NCBI GenBank assembly: GCA_016235455.1
Contig: JACRKZ010000057.1
Span: forward strand, 24,269-88,268
DNA length: 64,000 nucleotides
From: Armatimonadota bacterium
GTDB lineage: Bacteria; Armatimonadota; UBA10988
Direction: 5' to 3'
The position numbers and the translations under genes were made by a program. The first letter of the stretch is position 1. The number at the start of each line of letters is the position of its first letter. Of this stretch, positions 11,185 to 35,586 are shown one piece after another. The notes under the pieces were generated by a model. The model was not told the DNA's origin and did not search any database. It was given only the letters and a program-made list of their open reading frames with translations.

Positions 11185-11743
11185 GGTCGACGGCCAGCCC
11201 ATCGGGCGCGCGCTGCGCCACCGCTATGTCATGTTCCACAAGCCGTCGGGCTGCGTGACCACCCGCTCCGACCCCGAAGGTCGGCGCACGGTCTATGACC
11301 TGCTGTATGACGACGACCGCGTGCTGCACACCGTCGGCCGGCTCGACTGGGACTCCAGCGGCTTGCTGCTGCTGACCAACGACGGCGAGTTGACCCACCG
11401 CCTGACGCACCCGCGCTACGGCATCCAGAAGCTCTACCGCGTGGCCACCAAACCTTGGCCGACCGAGAAGTACATGCGCCTGATTCGGCGCGGCGTGGAG
11501 CTCGAGGACGGTATCGCCAAGGTCAAGAAGGCCAAGTACCTGCACGCCGACACCTGCGAGCTGACACTCGGCGAAGGGCGCAACCGCGAGGTGCGCCGCA
11601 TCTTCGAGACGCTCGGCTGCGAGGTGCTGTACCTGTGCCGCATGCAGTTCGGCCCATTGACCATCGGCACCCTGCGCGAAGGCGCGGCGCGTCCGCTCAA
11701 GGACGATGAGGTGCAGCGGCTGCGCGATGCGGTGGGATTGTAG
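11039..11743 (+). CDS. rluB: Pseudouridine synthase, RluB/RsuA family
   Basis: S4-domain N-terminus, GRLDWDSSGLLLLTNDGEL, GRNREVRRIFE. Confidence 0.92.
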   Translation: MERLQKLIAAAGICSRRAAEQLIRDGRVRVNGKVVRELGSKASPTDLIEVDGQPIGRALRHRYVMFHKPSGCVTTRSDPEGRRTVYDLLYDDDRVLHTVGRLDWDSSGLLLLTNDGELTHRLTHPRYGIQKLYRVATKPWPTEKYMRLIRRGVELEDGIAKVKKAKYLHADTCELTLGEGRNREVRRIFETLGCEVLYLCRMQFGPLTIGTLREGAARPLKDDEVQRLRDAVGL

Positions 11744-11769
11744 CGACCGGACCTGCTCTCTCTAGCCAC

Positions 11770-11834
11770 CCACAGTTTACGCAGATTACACAGATGAACG
11801 GATCGGCCATCTGTGCAATCTGCGTTATCCGTGG
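11770..11834. repeat. Imperfect intergenic hairpin, ATCTGCG-type repeat copy A
   Basis: ccacagtttacgcagattacacagatg pairs with catctgtgcaatctgcgttatccgtgg (23/27), between convergent rluB and pgi. Confidence 0.75.
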
Positions 11835-11858
11835 ATCATCAGATAGGTCTGCGCGATA

Positions 11859-13499
11859 TCAGCCCTTGCGGCTCAGGTACCGCGCCACCAGCGCCTCGGT
11901 CGAGCTGTCCAGGGCTGCCTTGGCCTTGCCGCTGAACACCTCGCCCAGCTCCGTGGCCAGCACCTTGCCGAGCTGCACGCCCCACTGGTCGAACGAGTTG
12001 ATGCCCCAGACCGCGCCTTGCGTGAAGACCTTGTGCTCATAGAGCGCGATCAGCGCGCCCAGCGCCTGCGGCGTGAGGCGGTCGACCAGGATGGTGTTGG
12101 TCGGCCGATTGCCCTCGAACACGCGGTGCGGCACGAGTTCGGCGTCCTTCTCCTCGCCGGCGACTTCCTCGGCGGTCTTGCCGAAGGCCAGCGCGCGCGT
12201 CTGCGCGAACAGGTTGGCCATGAGCAGGTCGTGGTGCACGTTAAGCGGGTTCTGCGTCTGGCAGCAGCCGATGAAGTCGCACGGGATGAGCCGTGTGCCC
12301 TGGTGGATGAGCTGGTAGAAGGCGTGCTGGCCGTTGGTGCCCGGCTGGCCGAAGACCACGGGACCCGTGTTGTAGTCGAGCCGACGGCCGTCGCGGTCGA
12401 CGCTCTTGCCGTTGCTCTCCATGTCGAGCTGCTGCAGGTAGGCGGTGAGCTTGTTGAGGTACTGGTCATAGGGCAGCACGGCCTGCGTCTCGGCGCCGTG
12501 GAAGTTGGAGTACCACAAGCCCAGCAGCCCCAGCAGCATGGGCAGGTTCTCAGCGATCGGCGCGGTGCGGAAGTGCTCATCCATGGCATGGAAGCCGTCC
12601 AGCAGCTCGCCGAAGTGGTCGGGGCCGATGGCCAGCATGAGCGACAAGCCGATGGCCGACGTCAGCGAGTAGCGCCCGCCGACCCAGTCCCAGAAACCGA
12701 ACATGTTGTCGGTGTCGATGCCGAAGCGGGCCACTTCCACCGCGTTGGTCGAGACGGCGACGAAGTGCGCGGCGATGGCGATCTTGTCGCACAGTTTCTC
12801 GAGCAGCCAATCGCGCGCCGTGTTGGCGTTGGTCATCGTCTCGATGGTGGTGAACGTCTTGGAGGCGACGATGAACAGCGTCTCCTCGGGGTCGAGGTCG
12901 CGCGTGGCCTCGGCGAAGTCGCTGCCGTCCACATTGGACACGAAGCGGAAGACCATATCGCGCCGGCTGTACGGCCGCAGCGCCTCATAGGCCATGGCCG
13001 GGCCCAGGTCGGAGCCGCCGATGCCCAGGTTGACCACGTTGCGGATCGGCTTGCCTGTATAGCCCTTCCACTCGCCCGAGCGGACACGCTCGGCGAAGGC
13101 GGCCATCTTGTCCAGCACGCCATGGATCTCGCTCACGCCCGCCACGCGCGTGGGCAGGCTGGCGTAGCCGCGGGGCATGCGCAGCGCGGTGTGCAGCACG
13201 GCGCGGCCTTCGGTGTTGTTGATGGCTTCGCCGGCGAACATGGCGTCACGCCGTGCCTCAACCCCGGTCTCCTCGGCCAACGCCACCAGCAGGGCCATGG
13301 TCTCATCGGTGACCAGGTTCTTGGAGTAGTCCAGGTAGATGCCTGCGGCCTCAGCGGTGAGGCGCGTGCCGCGCGTCGGGTCGGCGGCGAACAGGCCGCG
13401 CAGGTGCTGGCCCGCGAGGCTGGCCTGGTGTGCTTCCAAGGCGGCCCACGCCGCGGTTTGCCGGAGAGGGGTGGTGGACGTCATCGCTGCATACCTCAC
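11859..13499 (-). CDS. pgi: Glucose-6-phosphate isomerase
   Basis: [20 protein letters not shown]-like region, [11 protein letters not shown]. Confidence 0.95.
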
Positions 13500-25210: not shown

Positions 25211-26062
25211 CTAGAACCCTCCACGTCGCTGGGGCCGCAAGGAGCAGCCGAAGCCTCCACAGCGTACCACGACACCGCGGATAGCTCGGCTGACCACGGG
25301 CTCGGCGCGGGCAATCCACACCGGCACCAGCGCCATCGGGGCGCTGATGACCAACAGCAGGGGCTCGAAGCGGAGAGTCAAGTAGAGTCCGCCGTAGAGC
25401 ATCAGCAGTGGCACCAGGTAGGCCAGTGCCGTGCGGCCGCCCGCGCGCGCGCCGAGGATGAGCAAGAAGAGCAACGTGGGTAGGCCGACCCACCATCCCG
25501 GATGCCGCCACAGTGGCGGCGCGGGCGGTGGCGGCAGTCGGGTGACCTTGACGGCCAAGGCCCGGGGCTCGGGCAACGCGGCCTGCAACTGGGCCGCCAG
25601 AAAGACGAGCGCCTCGGCCACCGCCAGTCTGGCGTTGTTGACGTGCGGCGATAGCGCCGGCTTGACGCGCTGGTCGAGCAGTTGCGTTCGCACCGCGTCG
25701 GGCAGGCTTTCAGTCAGGCTGGGGCTCAGGGCCAGGTCGGCGGCGCGGGTTTCGAAGGTGATCTGCAGCACCGCCGCCTGGGCATCGCGGGCGGCACCGG
25801 CCCACTGCTTCAGCAGCGTGTCGGCGGTGCGCGGGCTGCCGGCCTTGGGCTCGACGACGACCAGCAGCTTGGCCGACCGCTCCCGACTGAGCTGCTCGCA
25901 GGCGGCCGTCAGCTTCTTGGCCTGCTCGGCGGGCAGCAGTTGGCCTGGGTCGACCAGTCCGCCCGCGGCGGGCAAGTCCAACGGCGCATCGGCGGCCTGG
26001 GCGGGGGTCAGCGCCAGCATCACCGTCGCGAGGAGCCCGATCCAGCAACGTCGGCCGCTCAT
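25211..26062 (-). CDS. TPM-domain-like membrane protein
   Basis: Signal peptide, GGLVDPGQLLPAEQAKKLTAACEQLSRERSAKLLVVV, C-terminal TMs. Confidence 0.6.
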   Translation of the reverse strand: MSGRRCWIGLLATVMLALTPAQAADAPLDLPAAGGLVDPGQLLPAEQAKKLTAACEQLSRERSAKLLVVVEPKAGSPRTADTLLKQWAGAARDAQAAVLQITFETRAADLALSPSLTESLPDAVRTQLLDQRVKPALSPHVNNARLAVAEALVFLAAQLQAALPEPRALAVKVTRLPPPPAPPLWRHPGWWVGLPTLLFLLILGARAGGRTALAYLVPLLMLYGGLYLTLRFEPLLLVISAPMALVPVWIARAEPVVSRAIRGVVVRCGGFGCSLRPQRRGGF

Positions 26063-27045
26063 TGCGGTGCCTCGTCGCCAGCCTCGGCCGCAGCCTCCGG
26101 CTCGGCTGCGGGGGCCGCCTCCGGTTCTGGGGCTGGCTCGGACGTTGGCTCGGGCGTGGGCGCCGATTCCGGTTCCGGCGTTGGCTCCGGCGCGGGGGCC
26201 GGCTCCGGCGTTGCTTCTGGCTCTGGGTCGCCTTGCGGCGTGGGCGCCGGCTCGGCGGGCGGCTCTTCCTTCGCCTTGCCCTTGGTGCGGCGCGACTTGG
26301 GTTTGGCGGGCTCGGCCGGCGGGGCCATCAAGGCGGCTGTCCGGGCCAGCGCGGCCTGCATCACGGCCATGAGCAGCGCCAGCCGGGCTTCGGCCTGGGC
26401 CGCGGTGAGGCGGGCCTGGCCGCGAGCCAGATCGAGGATTTGGGTCAGGTCGTCGGGTGCGATGCCCAAGGGCTCCGGCCAGGACTCGGGCCGCGCCGAC
26501 GGCGGGAGGCCCGCCAGCCGGGTCAGGCCGCGCAGTGTGTGCAGCAGGCTGGCCGCGTGCCCCACGAGCAGCCCGGGCAGGCGCTTGGGCTGGGCCGCGG
26601 CGGCCAGGCCGTCGGCGCGCAGTTGGGCGAGCTTGTCGCGCAGTTCCAGGCGCACTTGCGTGGCGATGGCCGGCCGCTCGGCGCTGCCTTCGGCCAGGAT
26701 GTCGCGACCGGCGATGAGCAGGTGGGCATCCTTGATGTCGAGCAGAGTCAGCGGTGTGACGGCCAGCAGATCGGGCACTTCCTCCTCGCCGATGACCGCC
26801 AGCGTGACCGGCGGTTTGACCACCGCGGCCACGGCGCGCAGGTCGCCCGCCTCGACGTGGTCGAGCACGGCCAGGATGTTGAGATCGGACACGCCCGGCC
26901 GGTAGCCGCCGCGCAGCGCGCTGCCATAAGCGTAGACGGAAACCAGGCGCCAGCCCAGCGCACGGCCGAGCGCGGCGGCCAGCCGGCCGGCTGGCTCGGC
27001 CAAACCTGGCGGAAGACTGCCCACAGTGTCCTCTGCTTGCGACAT
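26059..27045 (-). CDS. Nucleotidyltransferase-domain protein with Pro/Glu-rich tail
   Basis: VYAYGSALRGGYRPGVSDLNILAVLD; tail of PEP/PEPTPEPE repeats. Confidence 0.7.
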   Translation of the reverse strand: MSQAEDTVGSLPPGLAEPAGRLAAALGRALGWRLVSVYAYGSALRGGYRPGVSDLNILAVLDHVEAGDLRAVAAVVKPPVTLAVIGEEEVPDLLAVTPLTLLDIKDAHLLIAGRDILAEGSAERPAIATQVRLELRDKLAQLRADGLAAAAQPKRLPGLLVGHAASLLHTLRGLTRLAGLPPSARPESWPEPLGIAPDDLTQILDLARGQARLTAAQAEARLALLMAVMQAALARTAALMAPPAEPAKPKSRRTKGKAKEEPPAEPAPTPQGDPEPEATPEPAPAPEPTPEPESAPTPEPTSEPAPEPEAAPAAEPEAAAEAGDEAPQ

Positions 27046-27136: not shown

Positions 27137-27490
27137 ATGTCTACTCAACCAAGCAAGCAACTCGAAATCGTGCCGAACCCCAAACCCGAGCGCGACTATG
27201 TCATCAGCATTGAATGCCCCGAGTTCACCTGCGTCTGTCCCAAGACCGGCCAGCCCGATTTTGCGACGATCAGGGTAGAATACACCCCCGACCAGGGCAT
27301 CATCGAACTCAAGAGCATGAAGCTCTACTTCTGGAGCTACCGCGAGACCGGCACCTTCCACGAAGCCGTGACCAACCAGATCCTGGACGACTTCGTGGCC
27401 GCGTGCCAGCCGCGGTGGATGAAGGTGGTCGGCGACTTCAACGTGCGTGGCGGCATTCACACGGTGGTCACCGCGGAGTACCGGGCGTAA
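27137..27490 (+). CDS. queF: NADPH-dependent 7-cyano-7-deazaguanine reductase
   Basis: [47 protein letters not shown]. Confidence 0.93.
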
Positions 27491-30129: not shown

Positions 30130-31455
30130 CTAGAATACCACACCCAGCAACGGGCCGTCGGGGTCGGCGAAGCCCTCGGCCGGCTGCTGGCCCGGTAGCC
30201 AGACGATCTGGTCGCCAAGCACCACCAGCGGCACGCGGTCGCGCGCCGGGGCCGGTACTCCCTGCTCCGCCAGCCAGTCGCCCAGCGGCTTGCGCGGTCG
30301 GCCAGCGGGCTGGTAGTGGTCGCCGGGGCGCCGACTGCGCACCGTATAGCGGCCGGCCCGCAGGCAGGCGCACAGCTCGCCAGGGCCGCAGCCCAGACGC
30401 GGCACGCCGGCCGGCAGTGCCGCGCCAAGCTCGACGGGGCCCCACGGCGTTGGCGCGGGCCAGTGGGCCACGGCCAGCCGCGACCCGCACCGCGTGGCGG
30501 TGGCTGCGCCCAGCACTCGCGGCCACGTCAACGGCCGGGCGTCGGCGCGTCCACCGGCCAGCGTGTCCAGCGACTCGACCAGCACGGCATCGACCTCGGC
30601 CAGCGTGCCGCGCCAGCTTCCGAGCCAGGCCCGCAGCAGCAGGTGCCGCTCGGGCTGGGCCATGGCCGACCAGCCCGAGACGTCGAGCACCGCCGCGCCG
30701 AGCCCGGCGATGAAGCTGGCCGGCTCGGGTACTATGCGCCGGCCGTCCAGCAGGAGCTGGCCGTAGTTGTCCAGCGCCTGTCGGTCCAGGTCACAGACGC
30801 CCGCCGCGCGGGCCACGGCCTGCCTGGCGCCGGGTCGGAGCGTCTCCAGCAGCGGCAGCACCTGAGCCCGCACGCGTGCGCGCAGGTTGCCGTCCTGGTT
30901 GGTCGGGTCGTTGACCACGGGCAGCGCGTGGGCGGCGGCATAGGCGGCGAGTTCGGCGCGGGCGCAGTCGAGCAGCGGCCGCGCCAGGCGGCCCGAGCGC
31001 GCCGGCATAGCGCCCAGCCCGCGGGTGCCGGCTCCGCGCAGCAGGTTGAGCAGCAACGTCTCGGCGCGGTCGTCGGCGCTGTGGCCCAGGGTGATGTGCT
31101 CGGCGCCGACCTCGTCGGCGCAGCGGCGCAGGAAGGCATGGCGTTGGTCGCGCGCGCCGGCCTCGTCGTGACACGGCGCGTCGGCGCGCCCCAGGCGCAC
31201 CGGCCAGCCCTGCTGTTCGGCCCAGGCGGCGGTGGCGGCGGCCTCGGCGGCGCTCTCGGGCCGTTGGCCGTGGTCGAAGACGGCGACGGTCAGCCGCCAG
31301 CCGAACTCCGGTGCGAGCCGGCCGAGAAGGTGGAGCAGGCTGAGGCTATCGGCTCCACCGGAGACCGCGACGAGGATGGTGGCGTCGCGCGGCAGCAGGT
31401 GGTACCGGTCGAGGGTGGTGCGAACTCGTGGCAGCAAGTCGAGCGAGTGCGTCAT
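30130..31455 (-). CDS. tilS: tRNA(Ile)-lysidine synthase
   Basis: ILVAVSGGADSLSLLHLL, HSADDRAETLLLNLLRG. Confidence 0.92.
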   Translation of the reverse strand: MTHSLDLLPRVRTTLDRYHLLPRDATILVAVSGGADSLSLLHLLGRLAPEFGWRLTVAVFDHGQRPESAAEAAATAAWAEQQGWPVRLGRADAPCHDEAGARDQRHAFLRRCADEVGAEHITLGHSADDRAETLLLNLLRGAGTRGLGAMPARSGRLARPLLDCARAELAAYAAAHALPVVNDPTNQDGNLRARVRAQVLPLLETLRPGARQAVARAAGVCDLDRQALDNYGQLLLDGRRIVPEPASFIAGLGAAVLDVSGWSAMAQPERHLLLRAWLGSWRGTLAEVDAVLVESLDTLAGGRADARPLTWPRVLGAATATRCGSRLAVAHWPAPTPWGPVELGAALPAGVPRLGCGPGELCACLRAGRYTVRSRRPGDHYQPAGRPRKPLGDWLAEQGVPAPARDRVPLVVLGDQIVWLPGQQPAEGFADPDGPLLGVVF

Positions 31456-31485: not shown

Positions 31486-32625
31486 TCAGGAGCGCCACAG
31501 CCAACGCCGAACGGCCTCGTGGCCGTGGCGTTCGCGGCCCGTGTCGGCCGCCCACAGCTCGGTGAACCGCTCCGGCCCAGCCATGGGCCGGTTGTGGCGA
31601 TAGGCCAGATAGGGCACCGGCTGGTTGACGTGGCGGCGCGATTCCAGAGAGCAAGCGTAGTCGCACAGCACCGTGATGTCCAGGTCGGTGCCGGTGCCCA
31701 CACGCGCCCAGAGCGGCGCCAGGACATAGCGGTCGAGTGCGCTGACCAGGTCGGCGCGCTTCTCGGCATCGCCCGCGTGGGCCAGCGTGTCAGCCGCGCT
31801 GGACTGTGAGATGACCGTCGTGGCATGGTCGAGCCGCGCCACCAGCTCGTCGGCGATGCCGGCCAGCGTACGGCCGGCGGCGGCGCGCGGCGCATTGAGC
31901 CCGCAGGCCCGCGCCACGCCACGCACGGCGTGGTTCTCGCTGATCAGGCTGGTCATCTGGCCGCTGCGCAGCACGAACATCGGCAGTTCGGGCGCACGAC
32001 CCAGGCCCCACGGCCACAGCGCGTCGAGCGAAGGCAGGCCCTGGTCGGCGCGCGCGCGGTTGACGTCGTGGCCAGCCAGCAGCTCGCGCGAAATGTCGAT
32101 GATGCGGCGCACCTCGTGGTCACGCTCGCCCGACGGCAGCTGTGCCTCGGCATCGGTCAGCTCGCCCGGCGGCACGCAGCGAACCTCCATCGGGCCTTCG
32201 TTCCAGACCGCCAGCGCTGTGGTCGGACGCACGCTGCGGATGGCCAGCCGCGGCGTGGAGAGCGCCGCGCTCAGGTCGCGCCACAGCAGCGCCGCGTCGG
32301 CCTCGTCAGGCGGCGTGGGGCGTGGGTCGACCGCGCCTGTCAGGCTGATCAGATCGAGCCGCGCGCCGACATCGCGGCGGTCGAGCGAGGGGCCCGCGCC
32401 AAGCACTTCCAGCGGCCCGCGCGCCAGGCCAACGGGCGAGTAGCCCAGCAGCGCGGCGGTGGTCAGGTCGACGCCGAGTGCCGCCGCGTCGGGCACGGGC
32501 TGCACCAGCCCGACCTCGGACACGCGGGCCATGGCGTCGAGCGTGGGCGTCGAGCCGTGCATGAGCGCGGTGTCCGTGCCGGGCGGCTCGGACAGTCCGC
32601 TGAAGATGAGCAGCACGTGGGCCAC
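31486..32625 (-). CDS. Archaeal-type phosphoglycerate mutase-like (alkaline phosphatase superfamily) protein, degenerate metal site
   Basis: Overall aPGM pattern (GLVQPVPDAAALGVDLTTAALLGYSPVGLARGPLE; SLESRRHVNQPVPYL); GTG start inferred. Confidence 0.7.
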   Translation of the reverse strand: MAHVLLIFSGLSEPPGTDTALMHGSTPTLDAMARVSEVGLVQPVPDAAALGVDLTTAALLGYSPVGLARGPLEVLGAGPSLDRRDVGARLDLISLTGAVDPRPTPPDEADAALLWRDLSAALSTPRLAIRSVRPTTALAVWNEGPMEVRCVPPGELTDAEAQLPSGERDHEVRRIIDISRELLAGHDVNRARADQGLPSLDALWPWGLGRAPELPMFVLRSGQMTSLISENHAVRGVARACGLNAPRAAAGRTLAGIADELVARLDHATTVISQSSAADTLAHAGDAEKRADLVSALDRYVLAPLWARVGTGTDLDITVLCDYACSLESRRHVNQPVPYLAYRHNRPMAGPERFTELWAADTGRERHGHEAVRRWLWRS

Positions 32626-32627
32626 GG

Positions 32628-33518
32628 CTAGATGTCGGTCTGGCCCGTGAGGCGGGTCAGCGCTTCCATGTAGCGCGCACGGGTGATGGCCACCACTTCG
32701 GGCGTGGGCTCGGGACCGGGCGGGGTCTTGTCCCAGGTCAGCGTGTCCAGCCAATCGCGCAGGAACTGCTTGTCCATGGCGCGCTGCGCCTGGCCCGGCG
32801 TGTACTCGTCCACGTCCCAGAAGCGCGAGGAGTCAGGCGTCAGCACCTCGTCGATGAGCGCCAGTTCGCCGTCGATCAGGCCGAACTCGAACTTGGTGTC
32901 GGCGATGATCACGCCGCGCTCGCGAGCGTAGGCCGCGCCGTCGGTGTAGATGGCCAGCGCCGTGTCACGCAACTGCTCCGCGCGCGCCTGGCCCACGATG
33001 GCCACGCAGCGGTCGAAGCTGATGTTCTCGTCGTGCCCTTCGACCGCCTTGGTCGAAGGCGTGAAGATGGCCTCGGGCAGCTGGTCGGACTCGCGCAGGC
33101 CGGCGGGCAGGGCAATGCCACAGACGGTCTGGCTGCGCTGGTATTCCTTCCAGCCGCTACCGGCCAGATAGCCGCGGACGATGCACTCGACGGGCATGGC
33201 CTCGGCCTTCCGGACCCACATCGAGCGGCCCGTCAACGAGTCGCGGCTGGCCTGGAAGGCGGCGGGGAACTGGTTCTCGTCAGCGCTCACGCGATGGTGC
33301 TTGACGCCGGCGGCGGCGAAGCGGTCCAGCCAGAAGTTGGTCAGCGCGGTGAGAATCTTGCCGCGGTCGGGCACCGGCTTGGGCAGCACAACATCGTAGG
33401 CCGACACGCGGTCGGTGGCCACGATGAGCAGATCGTCGCCGAGATTGAAGACATCGCGGACCTTGCCGCGATAGTCGGGCTGACGACCGTCGAGTACGGC
33501 CTCCATCAGACCGGCCAT
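32628..33518 (-). CDS. purC: Phosphoribosylaminoimidazole-succinocarboxamide synthase
   Basis: YRGKVRDVFNLGDDLLIVATDRVSAYDVVLP. Confidence 0.94.
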   Translation of the reverse strand: MAGLMEAVLDGRQPDYRGKVRDVFNLGDDLLIVATDRVSAYDVVLPKPVPDRGKILTALTNFWLDRFAAAGVKHHRVSADENQFPAAFQASRDSLTGRSMWVRKAEAMPVECIVRGYLAGSGWKEYQRSQTVCGIALPAGLRESDQLPEAIFTPSTKAVEGHDENISFDRCVAIVGQARAEQLRDTALAIYTDGAAYARERGVIIADTKFEFGLIDGELALIDEVLTPDSSRFWDVDEYTPGQAQRAMDKQFLRDWLDTLTWDKTPPGPEPTPEVVAITRARYMEALTRLTGQTDI

Positions 33519-33539: not shown

Positions 33540-34844
33540 CTAGGCGTCGACGCCGAAGCAGCGGAACACATTGCAGATATCGACCACTTCGTCCAGCCCA
33601 TCCATGGTGGCCAGACTGGCGCGGATGTTGGCCTCGGTGGTGTCGTGGGTTATCCACACCAGCTCGGCCAAGCCGGCCGTGAGGTCGTCGGTGATGCGCG
33701 TCTGCAGCACCTGCGCGATGCTCACGCCGTGGCTGCCGAGGATGCCGGCCAGCTCGGCCAGCACGCCCACGCGGTCGGCCACGCGCATGCGCACGTAGTA
33801 GCTCGACTCGATCTCGTCCACGGTGGCCACGGTGCGGTGGCCCGAGAAGCCCAGCGGATAGCTGCGCTGGCCGCCGCGACCCAGGTTGCGCGCCACGGTG
33901 ATGATGTCGCCGGCCACCGCGGAGCCGGTCGGATCGGCGCCGGCGCCGCGACCATAGAACATGACCTGACCCACCGGTGCCGCCTCGACGAAGATGGCGT
34001 TGAACACGTCGTTGACGTTAGCCAGCGGATGCGTCTCGGGCACCAGGCACGGGCTGACGCGCAATTCCAGCTTCTCGCCGCGGTCCTTGGCCACGGCCAG
34101 CAGCTTGAAGCGGTAGCCGAGGTTGCGCGCCAGGGTGATGTCGGCCGGCGTGATGCTGCTGATGCCCTCGCGACAGACCTGCTCCTCGGAGACGGCGGTG
34201 TCGAAGGCCAGCATGGCCAGAATGGTCAGCTTGTAGGCCGCGTCGTGCCCGTCGATATCGGCCGACGGGTCGGATTCGGCGTAGCCCTTGGCCTGCGCTT
34301 CGGCCAGCAGGTCGTCAAACGCCTGGCCCGAGCGGGTCATGGCGCTCAGGATGTAGTTGGTGGTGCCGTTGATGATGCCTACCACCTGCTTGACACGGTT
34401 GGCGGTGAGGCCGCTGCCCAGCGGCTGGATGATCGGGATGCCGCCGCCGACGCTGCCCTCGAAGGCCAGGTCGACATGGTGCTTGTCGGCCAGGGCAAAC
34501 AGCTCCAGGCCGTGCTTGGCGATCAGCTCCTTGTTGGCGGTGACCACGCTCTTGCCGGCGCTGAGCGCGGCAATCACGGCTTCGCGAGCGATGCCCACGC
34601 CGCCGATCACCTCGACCACCACATCGATGTCGTCGGCCGTGGCGACGGCCATCGTATCGGTTGTGAGTTCCAGGTCGGTCGTGTCGACCGCGCGATGACG
34701 CTCGGTGTCACGTACCGCGGCGCGCACGGGCAAAAGCTCGGCGCCGACGCGCCGCGCGATGGCCTCGCGCTCGGCAGTCAGCGCGGCCAACGCGCCGCTG
34801 CCCACCGTACCTAGACCCAGGAAACCGATGCGAATGGTCTTCAA
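33540..34844 (-). CDS. hom: Homoserine dehydrogenase
   Basis: GFLGLGTVGSGALAAL, INGTTNYILSAMT, C-terminal ACT domain. Confidence 0.94.
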   Translation of the reverse strand: MKTIRIGFLGLGTVGSGALAALTAEREAIARRVGAELLPVRAAVRDTERHRAVDTTDLELTTDTMAVATADDIDVVVEVIGGVGIAREAVIAALSAGKSVVTANKELIAKHGLELFALADKHHVDLAFEGSVGGGIPIIQPLGSGLTANRVKQVVGIINGTTNYILSAMTRSGQAFDDLLAEAQAKGYAESDPSADIDGHDAAYKLTILAMLAFDTAVSEEQVCREGISSITPADITLARNLGYRFKLLAVAKDRGEKLELRVSPCLVPETHPLANVNDVFNAIFVEAAPVGQVMFYGRGAGADPTGSAVAGDIITVARNLGRGGQRSYPLGFSGHRTVATVDEIESSYYVRMRVADRVGVLAELAGILGSHGVSIAQVLQTRITDDLTAGLAELVWITHDTTEANIRASLATMDGLDEVVDICNVFRCFGVDA

Positions 34845-35290
34845 CCCACATCCTCCAACGGCTCGAACTCCATCAACACTTCGCCGGTGACCACCAACTG
34901 CTCGTTGGCCGCCACCACGCGCGACAGCCGGCCATGGAAGCCAACGGGGATCTCGTTGAAGATCTTCATGGCTTCGATGAGGCAGGCCACGTCGTCGGGC
35001 TCGACCACGTCGCCAACCTGCACAAAGACCGGCTCGCTGGGCGAGGGCGACCGATAGAACACGCCGGTGATCGGCGATCTGAGGCGCAGCAGGTGGCTGG
35101 TGTCTTCGACGGCTTCGCCCCCCGGGCCCGCGCCGGCCGCGACCAGGGCGCCGGCCACAGGCCGCGCCGACGGCACGGAGGTGATGCTCACCTCGGCGTC
35201 GTCTTCGGTCACGCTCAGGCCTTCGAGCCCGTGGCGTTCCACGATCTCGATCAGCCGTCGCACCTCGGTCAGGTCTACCAATGGGTCCAT
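34841..35290 (-). CDS. accB: Biotin carboxyl carrier protein of acetyl-CoA carboxylase
   Basis: LRSPITGVFYRSPSPSEPVFVQVGDVVEPDDVACLIEAMKIFNEI. Confidence 0.9.
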   Translation of the reverse strand: MDPLVDLTEVRRLIEIVERHGLEGLSVTEDDAEVSITSVPSARPVAGALVAAGAGPGGEAVEDTSHLLRLRSPITGVFYRSPSPSEPVFVQVGDVVEPDDVACLIEAMKIFNEIPVGFHGRLSRVVAANEQLVVTGEVLMEFEPLEDVG

Positions 35291-35586
35291 CCGCCTGCCA
35301 ATCCGTCCCGCGTGTGGCCCCAAAGGGCCGCCTGCCGCGATCCGTCGAGTGTACGGCACGGCCCCCGGCCGGTCAACCCCGGCCGGTTGGCGGCTGCACG
35401 GCTGACGGCGGTGCGAGGCGTGAGTTCGGGGGGCGGTGCGCTCCGTCGGACTGGTCCGAGACAGCGACCGAGACGACGACGCGTGCGTCTCCAACCACAG
35501 GCGTGGCTGCGCGCTCCATTCAACCCAACGCTACCGCAGCCTGCCCGGTGCGCATACCGGGTTATACTGAACGCGGAGGATACGTC

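Follow-up and report, generated by a model that had tools for sequence, protein, structure and literature searches.

A folded pseudoenzyme, probably derived from a homoserine kinase displaced by ThrB, in the hom-purC-tilS operon of an Armatimonadota bacterium

The window analysed here, a 64,000-nucleotide stretch of DNA from an Armatimonadota bacterium, encodes a protein of the aPGM fold that has lost its catalytic nucleophile and most of one metal site, and that is probably a homoserine kinase which was displaced by ThrB and turned into a folded pseudoenzyme lacking catalysis. The gene of this aPGM/TIGR02535-like pseudo-homoserine-kinase (31486..32625, minus strand; GTG start, stop included; 'pseudo-kinase' below) has an uninterrupted reading frame of 379 codons and, with a GC content of.79/.56/.83 at the three codon positions, a coding signature that resembles that of tilS; the coordinates, strand and frame given in an earlier note on this DNA are correct. 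It lies in a tightly packed, single-strand gene block (all genes on the minus strand): the first gene of the conserved block, for a biotinyl/lipoyl-domain protein (34841..35494), hom, encoding homoserine dehydrogenase with an ACT domain (33540..34844), purC (32628..33518), the stop of which is 2 nt ahead of the pseudo-kinase GTG, the pseudo-kinase itself and tilS (30130..31455), which starts 30 bases past the pseudo-kinase end. The proximity to hom and purC that the earlier note had pointed out is confirmed; the genes lie in an operon of the order hom-purC-X-tilS, where X is the pseudo-kinase.

The 379-aa protein matches the Pfam families PhosphMutase and Metalloenzyme and, within the aPGM fold, is nearest to the 'proposed homoserine kinase' subfamily TIGR02535/ThrB2. 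It scores 178 bits against the NCBIfam model TIGR00306 (apgM), below the curated cut-off of 320, and 146 bits against TIGR02535 (curated cut-off 446; the PRK04200 score is also 146). Its relatives of solved structure are aPGMs from Thermoplasma and Pyrococcus, and the AlphaFold2 model (pLDDT 92.8, pTM 0.91) finds as its top PDB match in Foldseek the aPGM 2zkt (E=1e-26); the model made for a badly broken copy from the family f26, described below, is of equal confidence (93.8). While the pseudo-kinase shares fold and domain order with aPGM (TIGR00306; PDB 2zkt, 3kd8), it falls under the cut-off, its catalytic residues are gone and its host genome has a canonical iPGM. In the tree, it is placed inside the TIGR02535 branch and separate from aPGM (support 100/100), and this placement holds with the active-site columns masked. 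Furthermore, it keeps W204-P205-W206 (32008..32016, minus strand), a motif of the homoserine-kinase branch that is Leu/Arg in aPGM. The motif is retained across the window's order, with W204 and W206 invariant in all four copies there. Both Trp residues are also retained in the broken-copy families f26, f30, f36 and f44 and altered in f14, f15 and f19, so that WPW is not common to all broken copies. With TIGR02535/ThrB2 proteins (PRK04200; BT2402 of Bacteroides thetaiotaomicron) the pseudo-kinase thus has in common the fold, the tree branch, the purC-tilS slot near hom, the WPW motif and metal site 1, but it differs from them in having no Ser nucleophile, a broken site 2, a far lower score and a ThrB in the same genome.

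The catalytic positions were called from an alignment with 29 intact TIGR02535-type proteins and 12 aPGMs; in C. elegans iPGM, site 1 consists of D426/H430/H485 and site 2 of D37/S86/D467/H468 (PMC5382265). All seven catalytic positions are invariant in 29/29 of the intact TIGR02535-type homologues, and BT2402 conserves both metal sites (PMC9765024). In the pseudo-kinase (all positions on the minus strand), Ser9 (32599..32601; motif LLIFSGLSEPPG) replaces the site-2 metal ligand Asp, Val52 (32470..32472; motif LGVDLTTAALLGYSP) replaces the Ser nucleophile, which reads S, A and S in the three nearest relatives, and Tyr323 (31657..31659; motif LCDYACS) replaces the site-2 ligand His, with Tyr in 4/4 members of the order. 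The remaining site-2 ligand, Asp322 (31660..31662), is kept, as is D53, the Asp after the nucleophile position. Site 1 is kept in full: Asp279 (31789..31791) and His283 (31777..31779), both in the motif AADTLAHAGD, and His332 (31630..31632), in the motif RRH. All of the motif changes that the earlier note had read from the sequence are therefore present, its summary of a protein missing the nucleophile and most of one metal site, with the other metal site kept, is borne out, and its view that this is not a normal mutase is supported.

Technical explanations of these changes fail. A misalignment with shifted Ser or ligands is refuted by the alignment itself (there is no Ser in LGVD, and DYA stands at the DHx position), while frameshift or misassembly is excluded by homologues that carry the same changes and by the intact frames. 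Sequencing error is ruled out because three homologues of the same order, those of G002, G001 and G216, have also lost the first site-2 Asp and changed the His to Tyr (their nucleophile positions being S, A and S, respectively). Phospho-Ser exchange would require the nucleophile and both metals; with the nucleophile and site 2 broken, the window protein should be unable to perform the known phospho-Ser ping-pong chemistry. Judging by the conserved residues, the protein of the window's order may still bind one metal or ligand. Catalytic residues lost in the alignment and a fold kept in the AlphaFold2 model fit a pseudoenzyme.

The earlier note had linked aPGM-related proteins to homoserine kinase activity in some bacteria without ThrB, and this link matches TIGR02535 (PMC7311316, PMC9026213). 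TIGRFam curators proposed TIGR02535 as a homoserine kinase, and BT2402 mutants require threonine, although E. coli thrB was not complemented by BT2402 (PMC7311316); complementarity between ThrB and TIGR02535 has also been seen in gut genomes (PMC9026213). Direct biochemical proof of homoserine kinase activity for TIGR02535 proteins was not found in our literature search. The further suggestion that the window protein serves as the homoserine kinase of an organism lacking thrB is not supported: the genome check proposed in the earlier note turned up a canonical GHMP ThrB in the window's genome (307 aa, scoring 235 bits, over the cut-off of 168, with its GHMP motifs intact; G000:C37:11444-12343). 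A still-working homoserine kinase is accordingly very improbable, for while the operon with hom and the membership of the TIGR02535 branch speak for it, ThrB is present, the nucleophile and two more site-2 ligands are gone and the score is 300 bits below the TIGR02535 cut-off. Nor would the cell need the protein for mutase function, as G000 has a canonical iPGM (539 aa; TIGR01307, 581 bits); besides the pseudo-kinase, no further aPGM-type protein was found in this genome.

Among 291 Armatimonadota genomes, ThrB is over the cut-off in 97 and TIGR02535 in 91. Both occur together in only 5 genomes, as compared to ~30 expected (5/91 vs 92/200, Fisher p=2e-13; shared ancestry uncorrected). This near-exclusion supports the view that intact TIGR02535 proteins stand in for ThrB and offers independent support, from a little-studied phylum, for the unproven homoserine-kinase assignment of TIGR02535. 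The picture is the opposite for broken copies: ThrB is found in 14/17 genomes with a broken copy versus 3/88 of those with only intact copies (p=5e-12; shared ancestry uncorrected). Residue-by-residue classing was applied to one copy per examined locus, and unaligned members of the 91 were called intact by the TIGR02535 cut-off. The genomes are drafts, many of them metagenomic, so that a missing gene says little about any single genome but more in the statistics. The three broken-copy genomes short of ThrB are G001, with only a contig-edge fragment, and G208 and G180, with none over the cut-off. G180 is 98% complete and has neither ThrB nor intact TIGR02535 over cut-off, just a heavily broken copy (L149); it may use another homoserine kinase. 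The five genomes with ThrB alongside intact TIGR02535 (L045 in G246, L049 in G212, L068 in G020, L039 in G206 and L041 in G207) are possible displacement intermediates.

The purC-X-tilS slot is occupied by an intact X at L045, L049 and L073 and by a broken X at L033, L034, L050 and L146. In G246 (L045), the order is hom-thrC-purC-TIGR02535-tilS with an intact X, which places the window gene in the homoserine-kinase slot.

Residue-level alignment identified 17 broken copies in nine families, and these are broken in different ways. The f26 copies have one ligand left (the Asp322 equivalent), with Pro at the Ser position, and share their genomes with an intact paralogue. In f30, the site-2 Asp and the Asp-His pair remain, the Ser is replaced by Pro or Cys and site 1 is lost; in f14 and f15, site 1 remains, with Pro at the Ser position and Thr at that of the second site-2 Asp; and f36, f44 and f19 have lost nearly all catalytic residues. 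For every one of the seven catalytic residues there is a broken copy that still has it, and the losses thus cannot all stem from one event: descent of all the broken copies from one ancestral loss is rejected at the residue level, although the copies still form one clade. Judged from the aligned residues, loss is repeated, since different copies lost different residues. As a separate observation, the nucleophile-loop Ser-Asp has become Pro-Glu in five broken families (L036-L038, L043, L124, L125, L141, L143, L135), a change that is either shared or recurrent.

The broken-copy clade lies within the TIGR02535 branch (100/97) and survives masking of the active-site neighbourhoods and dropping of the longest rows (99/94), whereas the purC and tilS trees do not group the broken-copy genomes (AU p=0.038 and 0.029). 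This conflict argues against a history of simple vertical descent with independent decay: either the broken copies are a distinct subfamily that moved around, or shared relaxation pulls the rows together. In three of the families, constraint on the broken copies is similar to that on hom, purC or the intact enzyme, with a dN/dS of 0.19 in f30 (purC 0.23 and hom 0.24 for the same pair), 0.23–0.31 in f26 (intact paralogue of these genomes 0.21) and 0.24 in f44. The proteins of these families remained under purifying selection once their catalytic residues had gone. Conservation in f26, f30 and f44 is spread along the sequence, with no collapse near the former active site.

For the window's own order, sampled by five genomes of which four carry the gene (the window's genome G000, G001, G002 and G216), the principal alternative is that of a simple relic, a functionless displaced gene in slow decay, the frame of which is held open inside a tight operon where stops or frameshifts could harm tilS expression. 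We consider this possible, though not the likely account. Consistent with decay, the fifth genome, the ThrB-bearing G003 of the same genus, lacks the gene by a clean deletion, with the purC stop, 3 nt and the tilS ATG in contiguous DNA; hom is 76% and purC about 80% identical to those of the window's genome, and the gene is thus dispensable in this genus. Moreover, the nucleophile position varies between S, S, A and V (n=4), the pseudo-kinase evolves faster than purC (44–52% versus 65–71% identity within the order), and many ThrB-bearing relatives are without any TIGR02535-type copy. Against decay, full-length frames persist in four lineages after their common His-to-Tyr change, the site-1 triad, D322, Y323, W204 and W206 are invariant in the four copies, the coding signature is tilS-like, the predicted fold is confident and dN/dS is about 0.2–0.3 in other broken families. 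As dS is saturated for the window's clade (pN/pS 0.69–0.84, in the range of tilS with 0.73–0.98), constraint there is read solely from the intact full-length frames, found in three genera and one further family. For the genus of the window's genome, the simple-relic explanation is almost on a par with the best one.

The invariance of the site-1 triad and D322-Y323 in 4/4 copies of the order, with site 1 kept in f14 and f15 too, could also point to a repurposed one-metal enzyme, a phosphatase or transferase acting on another substrate through site 1 (D279, H283, H332) and D322/Y323. Such an activity is unlikely, given that the nucleophile is optional, that no alternative nucleophile is conserved and that f26, f30, f36, f44 and f19 of the same clade lack site 1.

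Displacement by ThrB, which remains our preferred reading, would have started from an ancestral aPGM-type homoserine kinase (TIGR02535/ThrB2) next to purC/tilS in a hom-(thrC)-purC-kinase-tilS block of Armatimonadota. The presence of the unrelated GHMP kinase ThrB would have relieved the old enzyme of its catalytic duty, and rather than always being deleted it would often have been kept as a folded pseudoenzyme, losing catalytic residues in varying combinations. We infer an ancestor with homoserine kinase activity, an inactive window copy and a retained role outside catalysis. That related bacteria repeatedly kept dead copies, some of them under clear selection, suggests such a job; by analogy with HisZ and HisG, the protein might plausibly sense a ligand in threonine/aspartate-family metabolism or act as a partner subunit there. 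HisZ is a pseudoenzyme subunit, a catalytically dead enzyme relative that partners HisG. Like HisZ, the pseudo-kinase is a catalytically dead enzyme relative kept beside amino-acid biosynthesis genes; unlike HisZ, it is patchy and dispensable. More tentatively, the broken copies might constitute an ancient Armatimonadota pseudoenzyme subfamily whose role arose as ThrB took over the reaction. Such a subfamily could lose catalytic residues in any combination, because its role would be non-catalytic, for instance as a partner in the regulation or assembly of Hom, ThrB or a different protein of the pathway.

Copies that are intact, broken in part or broken throughout, mostly in one operon slot, form a natural before-and-after series of enzyme displacement in which the presence of the replacement enzyme tracks the breakage. 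Automatic annotation would label such broken proteins as phosphoglycerate mutase or homoserine kinase, and either label would probably be wrong. If the constrained broken copies do have a role, they offer a metabolic pseudoenzyme that can be put to the test.

Three further observations were made. At 26059-27045 (minus strand), the window holds a 328-aa ORF with a long Pro/Glu/Ala-rich C-terminal tail, the family of which is not clear, adjoining a QueF gene (27137-27490, plus strand). The f26 broken copies of G206 and G207 lie near tsaB/tsaE-like genes and not in the purC-tilS slot (L036:9198-10385, 11700-12895; L037:9962-11149, 12279-13492); tsaB and tsaE belong to threonylcarbamoyl-tRNA modification, a threonine-using pathway. 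Finally, a separate aPGM subgroup (L084 in G216:C47, L127, L128, L129, L131, L132, L140 and L142) has Glu for the site-1 His (GEDG for GHDG), with the rest of the catalytic residues intact.
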